A stretch of 64,000 bases of DNA from Arcobacter sp. CECT 8983 (GTDB taxonomy: Bacteria; Campylobacterota; Campylobacteria; Campylobacterales; Arcobacteraceae). Shown here in pieces: positions 44,594-52,870 of the stretch; the first letter of the stretch is position 1; each line of letters starts with the position of its first letter. A program made the position numbers and the translations under genes. Location: positions 1-64,000 of the forward strand of contig NZ_PDKF01000003.1 in the NCBI RefSeq assembly GCF_004118855.1. The letters are read 5' to 3'. The notes below the pieces were generated by a model, which saw only the letters and a program-made list of their open reading frames with translations, searched no databases and was not told the origin of the DNA.

Positions 44594-47500
44594 ATGTCAA
44601 AAGACGATTTAGTAGTTGTTGGAATTGGTTCAAGTGCAGGAGGTTTGGAAGCTTTACAAACTATGCTTTCAAATTTAGGTGAAGTTGACAATTGTGCTTT
44701 TGTAATTGCACAACATTTAAGTCCTACCCATAAAAGTATGATGGTTGACTTGTTATCAAGAACTACAAATATTCCAGTAATTGAAGTAAAAAATGCTCTT
44801 AAAATTAAAGCAAAAACTATTTATATGACTCCTGAAAATACTGATATATGTGTAAAAAATGGTAAATTATTTTTAAAAACACTTGAACAATCCTTTGGTC
44901 CTAAACCTTCAGTAAACTATTTCTTTTCATCTTTAGCAAGAGACTTTAAAGAGAATGCAATAGGAATTATTCTTTCTGGAACAGGAAGTGATGGAGCCCA
45001 TGGAATTAGAGCTATAAAAGCAGAAGGTGGAATAACAATAGCCCAAGCTCCAACAACTGCAAAATATGATGGTATGCCTTTTTCGGCAATTAATACAGGA
45101 AAAGTTGACCTTGTCGTTTCTATTGAAAAATTAGGTTCAGAGATAAGTGATATAGTAGCATCTTTAGATGAAAAACTAGAGTTATCAGTAAATGATAGAA
45201 TTTTACAGCAAATTTATAGATTACTTTTTAATGAATTTGGTGTTGACTTCTCTTTATATAAAAAAAATACTTTAATAAGAAGAATAGAAAGAAGATTAGC
45301 AGCTTTAAAGCTTAAATCTTTGCAAGAGTATATTAAAATATTATCTGATTCAAATGATGAACTAAACAATCTTTATCATGATATCTTAATTGGAGTAACT
45401 GCATTTTTTAGAGATAAAGAAGCATTTGAAAAATTAGAAGCTCAGATTAAAACAATTATGTCTAAAAAAGAGCAAGGTGAAGAGATAAGATTTTGGTCAA
45501 TTGGTTGTTCAACAGGAGAAGAAGCATATTCTGTAGCTATTCTTTTATCAGAAATTCTAAAAGAGAAAATATCTAAGTACAAAATTAAAATCTTTGCAAC
45601 GGATATAGATGATGAATCTTTAAAAATAGCAAGAACTGGTATTTATCCAGAAACTTCATTTGAAGGTGTAGATAAAGAGATAATAAAAAAATATTTTACT
45701 GTACAAAAGAATCATTTTGAGATAAAAAAATCACTTCGAGAATTAGTAATATTTTCTAAACACAATATTATTAGTGACTCACCTTTTTTAAGACTTGATT
45801 TAATAACCTGTAGAAATATGCTTATATATTTTAGTAATGATTTGCAAAATAAATTCTTTCCAATTATTCATTATGCACTTCGTGACAATGGAATATTATT
45901 TCTAGGAAAATCAGAATCAATTGGACAACATATTGATTTATTTAGTTTAATTGATAAATCATCAAAAATTTTTAAAGCACAGTTTACTGGAATAAAAGAA
46001 CCTCCAAAACTGTATAACTATTCTTCTGGCTATAAAAAAGCCGAACTAATTGAAAGTAATAGTTTAAAAATAAGAAATGAAGAAGAATTTTTAGAAAGTG
46101 TTGTTACTGATGCTTTAAAAGAAGTTTTATTAAAAAGTTGTGTAGTAGTAAACTCTTCGAATGATATTGTTTATATAAAAGGTGATATTCCTTATATAAA
46201 ACCAAGAGAAGGAAAGATAAGTAATAATATTTTCAAATTGTTAAATGATGATATTTCCTTAGATTTAAGAAATGCCTTAAACAAATCATCAAAGGGAAAA
46301 ACTGTACAAACAACTCAATTTAGATCAGTAATTCTTTTTGAAGATATTGTTAGATACGTAAGACTTATAGTAACTCCAATTAAAGATGAAAAAAGTGATG
46401 ATTGGTTATATACTATATTTTTCCAGTCAGAAGAGTCTCATGATATAAAGGAAAATATAGTTTATGAAGGTAATGAAAATGAGTTAATTCAAAAGCTAAC
46501 ACAAGAATTAGATAGTACAAAATCACATTTACAAAATGTTATTGAAGAGTTAGAAACTTCATATGAAGAGATGCAAAGTTTAAATGAAGAATTACAAAGT
46601 TCAAACGAGGAGCTACAAAGTTCAAATGAAGAATTAGAAACAACTAATGAAGAACTACAAAGTACAAATGAAGAGTTACAAACTGCATATTCTGAATTAA
46701 GAGTTTTATATGAAGATAAGGACAAAAGAGCAAAACAACTTGAAGAATTAACTTCTAAATTAGGAAATAAAACAGAAGAGTATAGAAAACAAAAAGAGAT
46801 TACAGAATTAATTTTAAATACAGCTCCCATTGCAATAACAATGGTTGATAATCATGGAAAACTAACTTTTGCTAATGATTTTGCACTGGAATTATTTGAT
46901 ATAAGTAAGAGTGAAATTTTAAATAGAACCTACGATAGTAAAGAATGGAAAATTAAAACTTTTTCAGGGGAGGATTTTTTAGAAGAAGAACTGCCTTTTT
47001 TTGTTATAAAAAGAACATTTGAACCCATTTATAATGTAAACCAATCAATACAAAGAGGAAATAAAAGAATTTTCTTATCAGTAAGTGGTTCTCCTCAATT
47101 TGATTTTGATGGGAATTTCCAAGGCGCAGTATTTTGTATAGAAAATTTAACAGAAAACCATACCTTACAAAATAATATTAGCCAATATGAACAAAGATTA
47201 AGTCATAAAAATAAAAACTTATTTGAAAATAGTAGTTTAAGTCTTTTTGAGACATCTTTATTAGATATTAATTCAAGTATTAGAAATCTTTTAGGGGAAC
47301 TTTCTTTACAGTTAAATAGTATAGAAGGAAATGAAAAAGAACTTACTTTAGGCAATAAAAAAATAAATCTTATTTCATCAATATTGGAGGAAAAAATAAA
47401 CTTTTACACTAATGATATACACTTTAAAGAAGAATCCTTATTTAATAGTGTAAATAGTTTTTTAAATAGTTTTGATAATGAAATAATTTATTGTAAAAAC

Positions 47501-47788
47501 AGAGTTAAAAATCATAGTGAAAAGATAGTTGGTGTTAAAAAACTCTATGAAAATATGTATGGTATTTTTGATTTTTATGTGAAACTTTCAACGGGACTTG
47601 GTTTGAATACTGTATCTTTAGAGTTAAGTGAAAAAGATGTTAAAGGTATTTCTTACTTAGTGATAAAGTCAAATATAAAGATAAATACAAAAGATGAAAT
47701 CTCTTTTTTAAATAAACTTCTTGAGGTTTTTTCTTTCAAGTTTGATTATAGTTATAAAGAGCAATTAACTATTTCAATTCAAATTTAA
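44594..47788 (+). CDS. CheB-CheR-PAS fusion protein with degenerate kinase-like C-terminus
   Basis: A 1,064-residue cytoplasmic protein. It begins with a CheB methylesterase without receiver (GSSAGG 12-17, His-41, GTGSDG 129-134). A CheR methyltransferase follows (about 200-475, SIGCSTGEEAYS). Next come an atypical PAS region, a long coiled coil of EELQSSNEEL-type repeats (46540-46720), and a PAS domain (about 735-850). The last 200 residues look like a histidine-kinase dimer/ATPase region without H, N or G boxes. CheB/CheR-PAS hybrids are known, usually with an active kinase. AAGGAT precedes ATG 44594. The PAS-GGDEF-EAL gene follows after nine bases. Confidence 0.88.
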   Translation: MSKDDLVVVGIGSSAGGLEALQTMLSNLGEVDNCAFVIAQHLSPTHKSMMVDLLSRTTNIPVIEVKNALKIKAKTIYMTPENTDICVKNGKLFLKTLEQSFGPKPSVNYFFSSLARDFKENAIGIILSGTGSDGAHGIRAIKAEGGITIAQAPTTAKYDGMPFSAINTGKVDLVVSIEKLGSEISDIVASLDEKLELSVNDRILQQIYRLLFNEFGVDFSLYKKNTLIRRIERRLAALKLKSLQEYIKILSDSNDELNNLYHDILIGVTAFFRDKEAFEKLEAQIKTIMSKKEQGEEIRFWSIGCSTGEEAYSVAILLSEILKEKISKYKIKIFATDIDDESLKIARTGIYPETSFEGVDKEIIKKYFTVQKNHFEIKKSLRELVIFSKHNIISDSPFLRLDLITCRNMLIYFSNDLQNKFFPIIHYALRDNGILFLGKSESIGQHIDLFSLIDKSSKIFKAQFTGIKEPPKLYNYSSGYKKAELIESNSLKIRNEEEFLESVVTDALKEVLLKSCVVVNSSNDIVYIKGDIPYIKPREGKISNNIFKLLNDDISLDLRNALNKSSKGKTVQTTQFRSVILFEDIVRYVRLIVTPIKDEKSDDWLYTIFFQSEESHDIKENIVYEGNENELIQKLTQELDSTKSHLQNVIEELETSYEEMQSLNEELQSSNEELQSSNEELETTNEELQSTNEELQTAYSELRVLYEDKDKRAKQLEELTSKLGNKTEEYRKQKEITELILNTAPIAITMVDNHGKLTFANDFALELFDISKSEILNRTYDSKEWKIKTFSGEDFLEEELPFFVIKRTFEPIYNVNQSIQRGNKRIFLSVSGSPQFDFDGNFQGAVFCIENLTENHTLQNNISQYEQRLSHKNKNLFENSSLSLFETSLLDINSSIRNLLGELSLQLNSIEGNEKELTLGNKKINLISSILEEKINFYTNDIHFKEESLFNSVNSFLNSFDNEIIYCKNRVKNHSEKIVGVKKLYENMYGIFDFYVKLSTGLGLNTVSLELSEKDVKGISYLVIKSNIKINTKDEISFLNKLLEVFSFKFDYSYKEQLTISIQI

Positions 47789-47797
47789 GGTTAAAAA

Positions 47798-50164
47798 ATG
47801 AATCTTGTTAATTTGATAGTACAAAATAATAATACTAAAGATAGCTATAAAAAATTATTGAAATTAAGAGATTATGAAATTAATAAAATGTTTATACTAT
47901 GTGAGGAACCTTGTACATTAAATGGGAAGCTCTCAATAATTGATATAGAAGATAAACAAGGAGTATTAAATTTATCAAATATTAGTTTTAAAGAAGAAGG
48001 AGTTTTTATACTTATCTCTCCTTTTTCTCAAAAACAAATTCAGGTACCAAAAGAGTTTCTAAATCAAAAAATTTTTTATTTAACAAAACCTATAGATATA
48101 TTTAAATTTGATACCATATTAAAAGATTCATCAAAACAAACAAATAAAGGTAAATATTTAAAGAGTATAGAAAAGACAATAATTGATGCAGTTGATAATA
48201 CTTCATTAAGTATTGCTATATACAATAACAAAGGTTTTTTAGTTTATGCAAACACTCTTTACAAAAAGTCAAATAAAATTGAAAATAAGAAAATATTTCA
48301 TTTTGATGATATAAAAAACTGTGAAATAGATTTTACTTCAATTATTCAAAACCTGAAAACAAAAGAGATTTATACTATACAGAAAAAGCAAAATAATCAA
48401 TGGTTTAAATCTTTTTTTTATAAGACCTCTGGAAAAAATATTGTTCATTTTTGTATGAACAATACTAAAGAAAAAGAGTATATAGAAAACTTAAAAAGAT
48501 CAGCAAAGTTTTTTGAACATAGTAATGAAGGTGTTTTAATAACAGATAATGAGAATAAGATAATAACTATTAACGATGCCTTTTGTAAAATAACGGGATA
48601 TACCAAAGATGAGGTTATAGGTAAAACTCCAAAGATATTGAGATCAGGAGTACATGAAAAATATTTCTATGAAAATTTATGGGATTCTCTAATACATCTT
48701 GGTTCATGGCAAGGAGAAATCTGGAACAGACGAAAAAATGGGGAAGTTTATCCAGAATGGTTATCTATCACAAAGGTAATAGATAAAAATACAAATGAGT
48801 TAAACTATATGGCAATTTTTACTGATATTTCTTCTTTAAAAGAGACAGATAAAAAACTTCAATTTTATGCAAACCATGACCATTTGACTGGACTTTTAAA
48901 TAAAGCGCAGTTTGAAAATATGTTAAATAAAACAATAGCAAAAGCAGTGCGAAATACTAGAAAATTTGCTTTATTGTTTATTGATTTAGACAATTTCAAA
49001 CAAGTAAATGACACAGCAGGTCATGATATAGGAGACTTAGTATTAAAAGAGCTTTCTTCACGTTTTCAAAAAATCCTAAGAAAAGAAGATATTATTGCAA
49101 GAATAGGTGGAGATGAATTTAATGTAATAATTGACAATATCACAGAATTAAGTGATGTTATTTTAATTTCTAAAAAATTAAATGATGAAATAAATAAGCC
49201 ATTTTTAATAAAGAATAAAACATTTTATCTCTCTTTATCTATAGGAATTTCCATTTTCCCAACTCATGGGTTAAATGCAAGTGATTTATCAAAGAATGCA
49301 GATTCAGCAATGTATGAAGTGAAAAAAAATGGAAGAAACTCTGTAATGGTTTATAATAAAACTATGACAGAAGATTTGATGGAAAAAGTATCCTTATATA
49401 CAGATTTAAAAGAAGTAACTAAACATAAAAAATTTGAATTATATTATCAGTTAGTGGTAGATACAAAAAAAGAGAATGTAATAGGAGCTGAAGCACTAAT
49501 TAGATGGAAACATCCTGAAAAAGGATTTATTAGTCCTGAGGTTTTTATTGAATCTGCAGAACATCATGGTTTTATAGAAGAGATTGGTGAGTTTGTATTA
49601 AAAAAAGCTTGTGAGAGCCTACCTACTTTATTAAATAAATTTGGTAAAGATTTTGTATTAAGTGTAAATGTCTCTGCACAAGAATTGATTGTGAAAAATT
49701 ATTTTGAAAAAGTGAAGACTATATTAAATGATTTTAATATTTCTTCCAAAAACATTGAATTAGAAATTACAGAAACATCAGTAATGAAAGATAGTGAAAA
49801 AGCAATAGAAGTACTTAAAAAGCTTAAAAAAGAAGGTTTAAGTATTGCAATAGATGATTTTGGTACAGGTTACTCTTCTTTGAGTTATTTAAAAAAGCTT
49901 CCCGTTAATAAAATTAAGATAGATAAATCATTTATTTTAGATATGATAAATGATAATGATGATAATGATATGGTAAAAGCAATAGTTAATATTGCAAATA
50001 TATTTAAATATGAAATACAAGCTGAAGGTGTTGAAACTTTAGAACATACAAAACTATTAAAAAAACTTAATGTTGATGTTGCACAAGGTTATTATTACTG
50101 TAAGCCTAGTCCAATCGAATATATTATCCAAAATGATTGGAGTTTTAAAAATGAATATAAATAA
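47798..50164 (+). CDS. PAS-GGDEF-EAL c-di-GMP signalling protein
   Basis: A 788-residue cytoplasmic protein. Residues 1-130 are an unrecognised region (possibly a degenerate receiver). A weak PAS lies near 135-225, a clear PAS at about 235-350 (ITDNENKIITINDAFCKITGY), GGDEF at 355-520 with intact GGDEF 437-441 and an RxxD site before it, and EAL at 530-785 (EAL 565-567, DDFGTGYSSL, VNKIKIDKSF). Both catalytic halves look complete, so it may make and degrade c-di-GMP. It is nine bases behind the CheB-CheR fusion and overlaps the next gene by 14 bases. Confidence 0.93.
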   Translation: MNLVNLIVQNNNTKDSYKKLLKLRDYEINKMFILCEEPCTLNGKLSIIDIEDKQGVLNLSNISFKEEGVFILISPFSQKQIQVPKEFLNQKIFYLTKPIDIFKFDTILKDSSKQTNKGKYLKSIEKTIIDAVDNTSLSIAIYNNKGFLVYANTLYKKSNKIENKKIFHFDDIKNCEIDFTSIIQNLKTKEIYTIQKKQNNQWFKSFFYKTSGKNIVHFCMNNTKEKEYIENLKRSAKFFEHSNEGVLITDNENKIITINDAFCKITGYTKDEVIGKTPKILRSGVHEKYFYENLWDSLIHLGSWQGEIWNRRKNGEVYPEWLSITKVIDKNTNELNYMAIFTDISSLKETDKKLQFYANHDHLTGLLNKAQFENMLNKTIAKAVRNTRKFALLFIDLDNFKQVNDTAGHDIGDLVLKELSSRFQKILRKEDIIARIGGDEFNVIIDNITELSDVILISKKLNDEINKPFLIKNKTFYLSLSIGISIFPTHGLNASDLSKNADSAMYEVKKNGRNSVMVYNKTMTEDLMEKVSLYTDLKEVTKHKKFELYYQLVVDTKKENVIGAEALIRWKHPEKGFISPEVFIESAEHHGFIEEIGEFVLKKACESLPTLLNKFGKDFVLSVNVSAQELIVKNYFEKVKTILNDFNISSKNIELEITETSVMKDSEKAIEVLKKLKKEGLSIAIDDFGTGYSSLSYLKKLPVNKIKIDKSFILDMINDNDDNDMVKAIVNIANIFKYEIQAEGVETLEHTKLLKKLNVDVAQGYYYCKPSPIEYIIQNDWSFKNEYK

Positions 50165-51188
50165 ACGGAAAAAAGTTTATGAAGCTTTAAAAAGACACTC
50201 TTTTGAAATAACAATGGATTTAGAAGAACAAATAAGAAATTCAAAATTGCCAATGATAAAAGATACTTTACATATAATACATGAAAGTGAGATACATTAC
50301 ATAATAAAATATCACTTTAAAATGATTTTAGTAGCTTTTTATTTTGAAAAAGCTACTTTTTTCTTAGAGTATCAGCTTTGGCTTTATAGAGTCTATTTTT
50401 TTAAAGAAGTTAATTTAGATTTTTTTATTTTCTTAAATAGACTTTTTGAAGAAGTATGTAAAAAATATATACTTAAAAAAGATTGTCTTGAAATTGAATC
50501 ATTGTCAAATGAACTTGAAAATGAACATGAAAATCTAAAGAAAGAAGCTTCATATAAAAGATATATTCTAGAAGATACGCAAGCTGAGGATTTTGCAAAA
50601 AATCTAATAATTGGAAATAATCATTATATAACAGATTTTTTTAATAAAAAAGTCTCAAATATTAATGAATTTCTAGAAATTTATAACACTACAATATCAA
50701 ATGCAATGAAATATGTTGGGTTTAAATGGGAAGCAAATGAAATCTCAGTTGCTAAAGAACATATAGCAACAAATACATTAGAAGAGGTAATTTTAAGTAT
50801 TATTGAGAATTTAAAGGAGTCTGAAGATAAAGATAAACATATCTTTTTAACAGCAGCACCCCATGAATATCATGGACTTGCTATAAAAATAGCAGCATTA
50901 GTATATAGAAAACTTGGATATAAAGTCACTTCTTTAGGAACAAGTATGCCAACAAAAGAAATAAAAAAAGCAATTATGGAGTTTAAACCTGATTACATTA
51001 TTTTTTCTGCTACTTTAAAGGCAAGTTTGATCGATATAGCTTTAATTATTGATGAAATAAAAAAAGATAAAAAGATCTTTCCTCAAAACTTAGTAATAGG
51101 AATTGCAGGGGCTGCTTTCGAAAATATTATAAATCCTTCAAAACTTTTTAAAACAGATTTTTATTTAAATAAGTTAGAAGAGATTTAA
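50151..51188 (+). CDS. Cobalamin-binding-domain-like regulatory protein
   Basis: A 345-residue protein from ATG 50151 (TGGAG upstream; the longer reading runs back into the previous gene). Residues 1-140 are helical and unrecognised, with a coiled coil near 115-130. Residues about 145-235 fit the helical cap of B12-binding proteins (EHIATNTLEEVI). Residues 235-345 fit the Rossmann B12 domain (FLTAAPHEYHGLAIKIAALVYRKLGYKVTSLGTSMP; His-241 at the cobalt-ligand position). The usual DxHxxG reads ExHGLA, so binding is plausible but unproven. It is co-translated with the c-di-GMP enzyme. There is no DNA-binding domain. Confidence 0.75.
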   Translation: MNINKRKKVYEALKRHSFEITMDLEEQIRNSKLPMIKDTLHIIHESEIHYIIKYHFKMILVAFYFEKATFFLEYQLWLYRVYFFKEVNLDFFIFLNRLFEEVCKKYILKKDCLEIESLSNELENEHENLKKEASYKRYILEDTQAEDFAKNLIIGNNHYITDFFNKKVSNINEFLEIYNTTISNAMKYVGFKWEANEISVAKEHIATNTLEEVILSIIENLKESEDKDKHIFLTAAPHEYHGLAIKIAALVYRKLGYKVTSLGTSMPTKEIKKAIMEFKPDYIIFSATLKASLIDIALIIDEIKKDKKIFPQNLVIGIAGAAFENIINPSKLFKTDFYLNKLEEI

Positions 51189-52870
51189 TAATATTTAGGA
51201 AACCTTATTGTAAAGCAAACTCCATCTTCAAAATTACAAACTTTTATACTAGATGTAAATTTTTTTACTATCTGTTCACAAAGATAAAGACCTATTCCTG
51301 TTCCTTTACTGCTACTTTTAGTTGTGAAGTTTAAATCAAATAATTTAGGTAAATTATCTTCATGTACTCCCCCTGCATTATCTACATATTTTAAAATATG
51401 ATTTTTATTATCTTCTTCAAAAAATATAGTTATCTTTCTATCTTCTATATTATTTTCATTGAAAGCATCCCTTGTGTTAGTCAAAAGATTTATAAGTACA
51501 TGTTTAAATTGGTTTTCAATAACTTTAACTTTGAAATCTTTTTCATACTCTATTTCTACTATTATTCTATTTTTTGTTAATTCATCTTTTAATAAAACTA
51601 AAACTGAATCTATCAAGACTTTCATAGAAATTAATTCAGAGTTTTTATCAGGTCTAAAAAAAGATCTAAATTCATTTAAGGTATCAACTAAATGCTTTGT
51701 TTGTCTATCTATCTCCCCTAAGTCATAAGCTATATTATCTAATTGTTCAATTCTATTTTCTATTTCACTTATTGTTATACCACTATTTTGAGCATAAAGG
51801 CGAATTATCGTTAAAGGATTTAGCCATTGATGTGCTATTATATCAATCATTTCACCCATTGATGCAAGCTTTGCTTGTTTTTCTATAAACTTTTCTTGGC
51901 TTATTCTTTTCTCTAACTCTTCTTGTACTTTTACTTCAAGGTTACTTTTTATTTCATACTCTTCTTGTATATCCACAAGAGAAAGCATAATTAATGAGTT
52001 ATCTAACATATATTCTTTAGCATTAAATTTAAATCGTCTTCTATTTCCAAACTTGCAAAGAACATCAATCTCAATGGGAAATTTTTTATAATCTTTATTA
52101 ACTATCCAAGATATTATTTTCTGGATATTATTTCTTTTAATATAAAAAAACAAAGACTTAATCATTAATTTTGAATTTGAAATTCCTAAATATTCATCTG
52201 CAAGGTGATTAAATCTTTTAATCTCTAAATTAGAATCAATTAGTAAATATGGAATAGGAGCATCTAAAAATAAAGATGAGAATTCTTCATTTAATGCTTG
52301 TAGATTTTTATCTTTTTGAATTAATTCATCATTTTGAGCTAATAGTTCTGCTTGGTAAATATTTAGTTCTTGGATTAATGAATCAGAATCAATTTTTGAA
52401 GAAGATTGAGTAAATTCATTAAAAATTCTATTTGTAACTTGGTCTTCATATAATGGCTTTGATTTTATTCTATAGCTACTTTTACTTATATCTTTTTGAA
52501 TTCCTAAAAAAAATTTTAATAATCCAGTTTTTTTATCAAAGATTGGACTTACTTTTACTTCATTATATATAAGTTCACCATTTTTTGTATAGTTTCTTAA
52601 AACAGTTTGAGCTTCTGATTGTGTATTAATAGCATCTCTTATAATTTCAAGATTTGCTTGGTCTTTATCAGTTCCTTGTAAAAACCTACAGTTTTTACCT
52701 ACTGCTTCATCAAAACTATATTCAAAGGTTTCTGTGAAAGCTTTATTTACATAAATTAAAGGATTGTCTTCTTGATTAGGATCACTTATTGTAATACCAT
52801 TTCTAGCTTGATCTATTATTTCAAAGAAATGTTCTTCAAGCTCACTCTTAATTTTATCTTTATTTTTCAT
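51185..52870 (-). CDS. LOV-domain (blue-light) PAS histidine kinase
   Basis: A 561-residue soluble kinase. Residues about 20-130 are a LOV photosensor: GKNCRFLQG (58-66) with the FMN-adduct cysteine Cys-61, followed by the conserved Asn in NYTKNG, the Asn in YNEVKVSP and the Gln in GIQKDIS. A coiled coil and a second PAS follow (about 205-310). The kinase core has MGEMIDIIAHQW (phospho-acceptor His-347), an N box LLTNTRDAF, DNAGG (497-501) and GTGIGL (523-528). No membrane segment or receiver is present. ATG 52870 has AGGACG upstream. It ends four bases inside the convergent B12-like gene. Confidence 0.9.
   Translation of the reverse strand: MKNKDKIKSELEEHFFEIIDQARNGITISDPNQEDNPLIYVNKAFTETFEYSFDEAVGKNCRFLQGTDKDQANLEIIRDAINTQSEAQTVLRNYTKNGELIYNEVKVSPIFDKKTGLLKFFLGIQKDISKSSYRIKSKPLYEDQVTNRIFNEFTQSSSKIDSDSLIQELNIYQAELLAQNDELIQKDKNLQALNEEFSSLFLDAPIPYLLIDSNLEIKRFNHLADEYLGISNSKLMIKSLFFYIKRNNIQKIISWIVNKDYKKFPIEIDVLCKFGNRRRFKFNAKEYMLDNSLIMLSLVDIQEEYEIKSNLEVKVQEELEKRISQEKFIEKQAKLASMGEMIDIIAHQWLNPLTIIRLYAQNSGITISEIENRIEQLDNIAYDLGEIDRQTKHLVDTLNEFRSFFRPDKNSELISMKVLIDSVLVLLKDELTKNRIIVEIEYEKDFKVKVIENQFKHVLINLLTNTRDAFNENNIEDRKITIFFEEDNKNHILKYVDNAGGVHEDNLPKLFDLNFTTKSSSKGTGIGLYLCEQIVKKFTSSIKVCNFEDGVCFTIRFPKYY

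Follow-up and report, generated by a model that had tools for sequence, protein, structure and literature searches.

The stretch of DNA that was analysed, here called the window, comprises 64,000 nucleotides of the Arcobacter sp. CECT 8983 genome, and positions 44594 to 52870 hold four closely packed genes for signalling proteins, three on the forward strand and one facing them:

44594–47788, + strand: gene 1, CheB-CheR-PAS (CheBR-PAS) fusion, 1064 aa (Pfam CheB 6e-53, CheR 7e-56, CheR_N, PAS_8)
47798–50164, + strand: gene 2, PAS-GGDEF-EAL c-di-GMP enzyme, 788 aa (Pfam, motifs)
47798–48157, + strand: receiver-like N-terminal domain of gene 2 (profile match, invariant residues)
50151–51188, + strand: gene 3, putative photocobilin, 345 aa (AlphaFold (AF2) model, Foldseek, B12 signature)
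50151–50570, + strand: phycobiliprotein/photoglobin-like domain of gene 3, residues 1–140 (AF2, fold matches)
50727–50873, + strand: B12 photoreceptor signature of gene 3 (GFKW193, E203-H204, H241; alignment of relatives)
50937–50951, + strand: GxxxP motif of gene 3 (GTSMP), following the B12 photoreceptor signature
51185–52870, − strand: LOV-PAS-histidine kinase, 561 aa (Pfam, YtvA/phototropin matches, residues)

Genes 1 and 2 are separated by 9 bases, genes 2 and 3 overlap by 14, and gene 3 meets the LOV kinase gene tail-to-tail with an overlap of 4. An initial annotation, made from the sequence alone, had described the same four frames and spacings, which the ORF coordinates confirm, and its domain calls (CheB-CheR-PAS, PAS-GGDEF-EAL, B12 and LOV kinase) agree with Pfam and with residue checks.

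The gene 1 protein carries the CheB residues S14, H41 and D133 and the CheR SAM motif, followed by a coiled coil, a PAS domain and a poorly conserved C-terminus, the last 200 residues of which show only 18–26% conservation and no kinase boxes. In gene 2, the RxxD, GGDEF and EAL motifs are intact. A profile built from its first 120 residues and those of eight relatives matched, along the entire domain, the CheY-like structure 3i42 (3.3e-10), and four of the nine members matched Pfam Response_reg. D49, K97 and P98 are invariant among the relatives, and the phospho-accepting D49, S74 and K97 are all kept in the window protein. The canonical five-residue receiver set (DD, D, S/T, K) is incomplete: the Mg-binding acidic pair has become Q9-N10, and is lost in the sister species as well, while some other operon carriers retain acidic residues at this site. 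Since this pair is replaced, the domain is regarded as a pseudo-receiver (as defined in PMC12632262). In denying a response regulator here, the initial annotation was therefore inexact: the 788-aa protein starts with a receiver-like domain, albeit one that is a pseudo-receiver in the window. The facing kinase was identified as a LOV protein by matches to YtvA and phototropin and by an intact GKNC(61)RFLQ motif, with Pfam matches to PAS, HisKA and HATPase. It has the adduct-forming Cys61, the flavin-contacting Gln125, the phospho-accepting His347, an N box (NLLTNTRDA) and a G2 box (GTGIGLY), as predicted for a LOV histidine kinase. With the CheB, CheR, GGDEF, RxxD, EAL, LOV Cys and kinase-box residues present, each enzyme could be active.

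Gene 3 matched Pfam B12-binding_2 above the cut-off and B12-binding at 30.0 bits, just below its cut-off of 32.1, and among solved structures the photocobilin of 8j2w/8j2x is the nearest to it in sequence (4e-12; 5e-23 with a profile). In CarH, a W-x9-EH pocket holds the adenosyl group while a separate His is the cobalt ligand; this pocket is reported to separate light-responsive from other B12 domains, and a light signature of GxxW, EH, GxxH and GxxxP has been published (PMC11796333). The corresponding residues of gene 3 are GFKW193, E203-H204, H241 and GTSMP, and its sole deviation is the G of GxxH, which reads HxxH. In the alignment of 12 relatives, W193, H204 (preceded by E, once by Q), E239 and H241 are kept, so that W-x9-(E/Q)H and E-x-H are common to all of them, even though the full-length ones are, the sister species aside, only 22–31% identical to the window protein. 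A reading of HEYHG as loss of the cobalt-ligand His was rejected, since aligning the protein with 8j2w and 11 relatives showed that it retains E-x-H. The AF2 model of the whole protein reached a pLDDT of 90.0, and the best Foldseek matches of this model include the B12 domains of CtMerR, SasPcob and AbPcob (8j2w/8j2y) at an rmsd of 2.5–3.1 Å. The predicted fold of the B12 domain is thus closest to light-sensing B12 domains.

No CarH-type MerR DNA-binding domain was found at the N-terminus of gene 3, which is formed by a globin-like helical domain, and a Pfam scan of the protein gave no HTH match. Modelled alone, residues 1–143 gave a pLDDT of 91.6, and all 50 of the PDB fold matches listed were phycobiliproteins or phycobilisome proteins (among them allophycocyanins and phycocyanins), the ApcE bilin domain or smURFP (TM 0.6–0.72, probability 0.99–1.00, with modest E-values of 0.03–0.34). 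The domain is accordingly predicted to be closest to bilin-binding globins. Pfam assigned no relevant family to this part and a direct profile search against PDB sequences returned nothing significant; the 8j2x globin gave a weak profile match. In that weak register, W77 corresponds to Trp296 of SasPcob (chain numbering 5 below that of the paper), and the biliverdin-binding Asp270 of SasPcob corresponds to I51, no Asp being found at the aligned site. AbPcob likewise lacks the biliverdin-binding Asp and binds biliverdin weakly (PMC10979010), and bilin binding by gene 3 is therefore uncertain. As photocobilins are defined by a B12 domain together with a phycobiliprotein-type globin (PMC10979010), the CarH-type signature and the predicted globin make gene 3 a putative photocobilin. 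The initial description of this protein as B12-like was right about the B12 domain and understated the rest, namely the CarH-type signature and the phycobiliprotein-like globin. Inside the same gene, a terminator-like hairpin of 11 pairs followed by a T run was seen at 50330–50357 on the + strand; its stem is mostly kept in the sister species, where a T-A pair has become C-G through changes on both sides at synonymous sites, and it is not obvious in three other relatives.

The order CheB-CheR-PAS, GGDEF-EAL, photocobilin recurs, with B12 proteins of 22–32% identity, in 10 loci from three families of the order, which shows that the grouping of these three genes is not due to chance. Seven loci lie within the family (the window, the sister species, G071, G036, G006, G001 and G017) and three outside it (one in G399, two in G430), the carriers including three species of genus g2, Sulfurimonas UBA6014 and, with two loci, Campylobacteraceae LaCa_MAG_18. 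The G071 operon is split over two contigs, those of G017 and of one G430 locus are cut by contig ends, and the CheBR gene of the latter was not seen. An overlap of genes 2 and 3 is seen at most loci. Gene 3 is rare, with a match in 11 of 104 family genomes including its own, and all seven CheBR orthologs above 57% identity in these 104 genomes lie inside the operon. Searching genome contigs with the B12 protein alone gave no match, and a profile made from the alignment of closer relatives found five loci (Sulfurimonas sp. UBA6014, two in Campylobacteraceae LaCa_MAG_18 and an Aliarcobacter MAG among them), four of which were operon loci already found. Matches of 1e-13 to 1e-15 from the order's other families were set aside, because the majority fall in frames of roughly 1,160 aa, which is the length of methionine synthase. 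Separately, a broken B12 gene with 10 stops inside the match (L009 / L020:9345-10028), in a genome lacking a CheBR ortholog, is likely a relic of operon loss.

The association of the LOV kinase with the operon is looser. The initial annotation had proposed that the grouping would be chance if related genomes rarely kept the four genes together; the three-gene operon is kept throughout, whereas the kinase adjoins it in three of the 10 loci, representing two lineages with different gene orientation, and is encoded away from it in a fourth carrier (G006). In G071 it comes immediately after the B12 gene, with the same orientation, and a PAS-PAS-HD-GYP gene comes next. At a cut-off of E <= 1e-90, kinase orthologs were found in four of the 104 family genomes (the window, the sister species, G071 and G006), all of them operon carriers, and full scoring of the other carriers revealed no further ortholog. 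Such co-occurrence has a probability of 8e-6; counting the sister pair once raises the value to 1e-4, both figures being otherwise uncorrected for phylogeny. The direct neighbours of B12 proteins of the gene 3 family also include histidine kinases (in G068, in G064 and at a second G063 locus) and, in G075, a regulator-kinase pair. In a kinase-core tree, whose inner branches are weak, the kinases of G068, G064 and G063 fall with the LOV kinase into a well-supported 12-row clade, the only firm one among the deeper groups. Short B12-domain proteins without a globin were also observed at L023:9036-10906 and L022:7772-9654, each overlapping a histidine kinase gene and with no regulator seen adjoining.

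A comparable cassette occurs with another photoreceptor. A congener (G059, L115:1556-9894) encodes, in this order, heme oxygenase, a bacteriophytochrome, CheBR-PAS and PAS-GGDEF-EAL, faced by a kinase that is related to the LOV kinase and ends tail-to-tail one base away. The order of the CheBR and c-di-GMP genes is thus shared with the window, but heme oxygenase and a PAS-GAF-PHY phytochrome without output domain replace the photocobilin (there is no relative of gene 3 in this genome), the kinase lacks a LOV domain, and the CheBR proteins are only about 39% identical. This phytochrome-bearing counterpart argues for light as the input. In G071 another CheBR gene adjoins a phytochrome gene, and in G090, from the same family, a single protein of 1656 aa (L132:4501-9471, − strand) combines REC, CheB, CheR, three PAS domains, GGDEF and EAL. 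At the level of gene and domain arrangement, these three associations independently argue that CheBR and GGDEF-EAL proteins work together and that light is the input. Heme oxygenase and phytochrome genes are also adjacent in three further family genomes (L094, L095 and L096), in two of them beside a histidine kinase as well. Upstream of CheBR, G061 and G034 have Cache-PAS genes whose reading as LOV was rejected for lack of the Cys; these were not counted as photoreceptors.

As to where the chromophores come from, 13 genomes carrying gene 3-type B12 proteins yielded neither a BtuR- nor a PduO-type adenosyltransferase, the controls being positive. The window's own genome contains a 1,162-aa frame with a B12 domain, by its size a methionine synthase, and, on contig C8 (L101:1669-9456), three adjacent genes resembling those of glutamate mutase MutL, MutE and MutS, near TonB-receptor and BtuF-like genes. 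From this resemblance, the genes are read as an adenosylcobalamin (AdoCbl)-dependent glutamate mutase with BtuB/BtuF-like uptake; if the mutase reading is right, AdoCbl must be available in this host. The same genome yielded no classical heme oxygenase, only a HugZ-like partial match that fell below the cut-off.

The closest described proteins are SasPcob and AbDPcob (PMC10979010; PDB 8j2w, 8j2x, 8j2y), which share with gene 3 the CarH-type B12 domain with W-x9-EH and the cobalt-ligand His, the bilin-type globin with a conserved Trp at the chromophore interface, and a link to c-di-GMP synthesis. In contrast to these cyclase-fused proteins, gene 3 has its globin at the N-terminus, no biliverdin-binding Asp was found in it, and it stands alone next to a GGDEF-EAL enzyme, its other partners being CheBR and a kinase. 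CarH shares the AdoCbl-pocket signature and B12 domain fold, whereas gene 3 lacks a DNA-binding domain and belongs to a signalling operon and not to transcriptional repression. The globin-B12 pairing also recalls photoglobins, which, according to papers that cite Schneider et al. 2022, were proposed there as light-sensing bundles in signal transduction. The window kinase resembles YtvA-type LOV domains and LOV histidine kinases in its adduct Cys and in a kinase core with all boxes, but has an extra PAS domain between LOV and kinase and adjoins a photocobilin operon. All domains, and the sensor and enzyme types, are thus known, while their wiring was not found described: searches of the open literature yielded no account of the operon, of photocobilins in the Arcobacter/Sulfurimonas group or of CheBR grouped into one unit with a photoreceptor and c-di-GMP enzymes, although a prior listing in Schneider et al. 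2022 is possible.

The best reading of the cassette is that it makes c-di-GMP responsive to light (or to AdoCbl) through interchangeable photoreceptors. The light- or cobalamin-controlled c-di-GMP switch suggested initially gains support from the CarH signature, the phycobiliprotein-like globin, the conserved operon and the phytochrome counterpart in the genus. Specifically, we consider it probable, with considerable room for doubt, that the operon is a light-signalling unit in which a photocobilin acts in trans on the c-di-GMP enzyme, with the LOV kinase as a second input. Genes 1–3 would be co-transcribed as one unit, and AdoCbl in the CarH-type domain of gene 3 would be photolysed by green light, longer wavelengths being effective only if a bilin occupies the globin. 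Photolysis would change the oligomeric state or shape of the protein. Its target in trans would be the GGDEF-EAL protein, whose gene is translationally coupled to gene 3: with the CheBR-PAS protein taking part, a signal entering by the pseudo-receiver/PAS N-terminus would shift the balance of c-di-GMP synthesis versus breakdown. Isolated photocobilins in their light state raise diguanylate cyclase activity both in cis and in trans (PMC10979010), and by analogy the simplest reading here is action in trans, with the c-di-GMP enzyme as target. The LOV kinase would provide a blue-light input to the same circuit and would probably phosphorylate an orphan regulator elsewhere. The analysis establishes gene content, motifs, predicted folds, the conservation of the operon, its recurrent pairing with kinases and the existence of a phytochrome-bearing counterpart; from these we infer chromophore binding, the light response, the direction of the c-di-GMP change, the CheBR role and a possible coupling of the LOV kinase to the operon.

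Several observations count against this explanation: no known adenosyltransferase was found, although the host has genes resembling an AdoCbl-dependent mutase and cobalamin uptake; the biliverdin-binding Asp appears to be replaced and no classical heme oxygenase was found in the genome; GxxH reads HxxH; the LOV kinase adjoins only three of the 10 loci; and it is precisely in the species with the adjoining kinase that the pseudo-receiver has lost the acidic residues for Mg binding. Alternatively, two independent units may simply abut, the photocobilin operon acting on c-di-GMP and the LOV kinase serving an unrelated two-component pathway, a serious though less probable arrangement. It would account for a kinase that was not seen beside seven of the 10 operon loci (some contig-cut), that lies elsewhere in G006 and that has no adjoining partner regulator; it sits less well with orthologs confined to operon carriers, with adjacency in two lineages in different orientation, and with the presence of members of the kinase's clade next to other B12 genes. 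More doubtful, though still worth weighing, is that gene 3 is a cobalamin sensor, reporting the availability or form of cobalamin (AdoCbl versus others) to the c-di-GMP enzymes, with light incidental. Cobalamin probably comes from outside, since no adenosyltransferase was found; a BtuB/BtuF-like cluster is present. AdoCbl binding alone lowers cyclase activity in the characterised fusion (PMC10979010). Yet the W-x9-EH adenosyl pocket reported to distinguish light-responsive B12 domains (PMC11796333) is kept, and light is also suggested by the presence of a bilin-type globin in the protein and by the counterpart that bears a phytochrome. The intact CheB and CheR catalytic motifs would also suit a chemotaxis adaptation unit, in which methyl-accepting chemoreceptors would be the targets of CheBR, itself tuned by the proteins encoded downstream. 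This is improbable, as no chemoreceptor or CheA/CheW gene was recognised among the ORFs around the operon, and the constant partner of CheBR is a c-di-GMP enzyme, in one genome fused with it into a single protein.

Beyond the light-signalling unit itself, it may tentatively be proposed that CheBR-PAS fusions form a light-signalling hub outside chemotaxis, placed between interchangeable photoreceptors (photocobilin or phytochrome) and a c-di-GMP enzyme, and that in this lineage the LOV kinase and the photocobilin feed one c-di-GMP circuit. The function of stand-alone photocobilins has been described as less clear (PMC10979010), and becomes directly testable with one locked in a conserved operon beside its likely target, the GGDEF-EAL enzyme. 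The finding would give a role to CheBR-PAS fusion proteins and would bring light biology to the Arcobacter/Sulfurimonas group, for which the literature searches found no described photoreceptor system. If the hub proposal is true, it would mean multi-colour light control in a non-photosynthetic member of the Campylobacterota.
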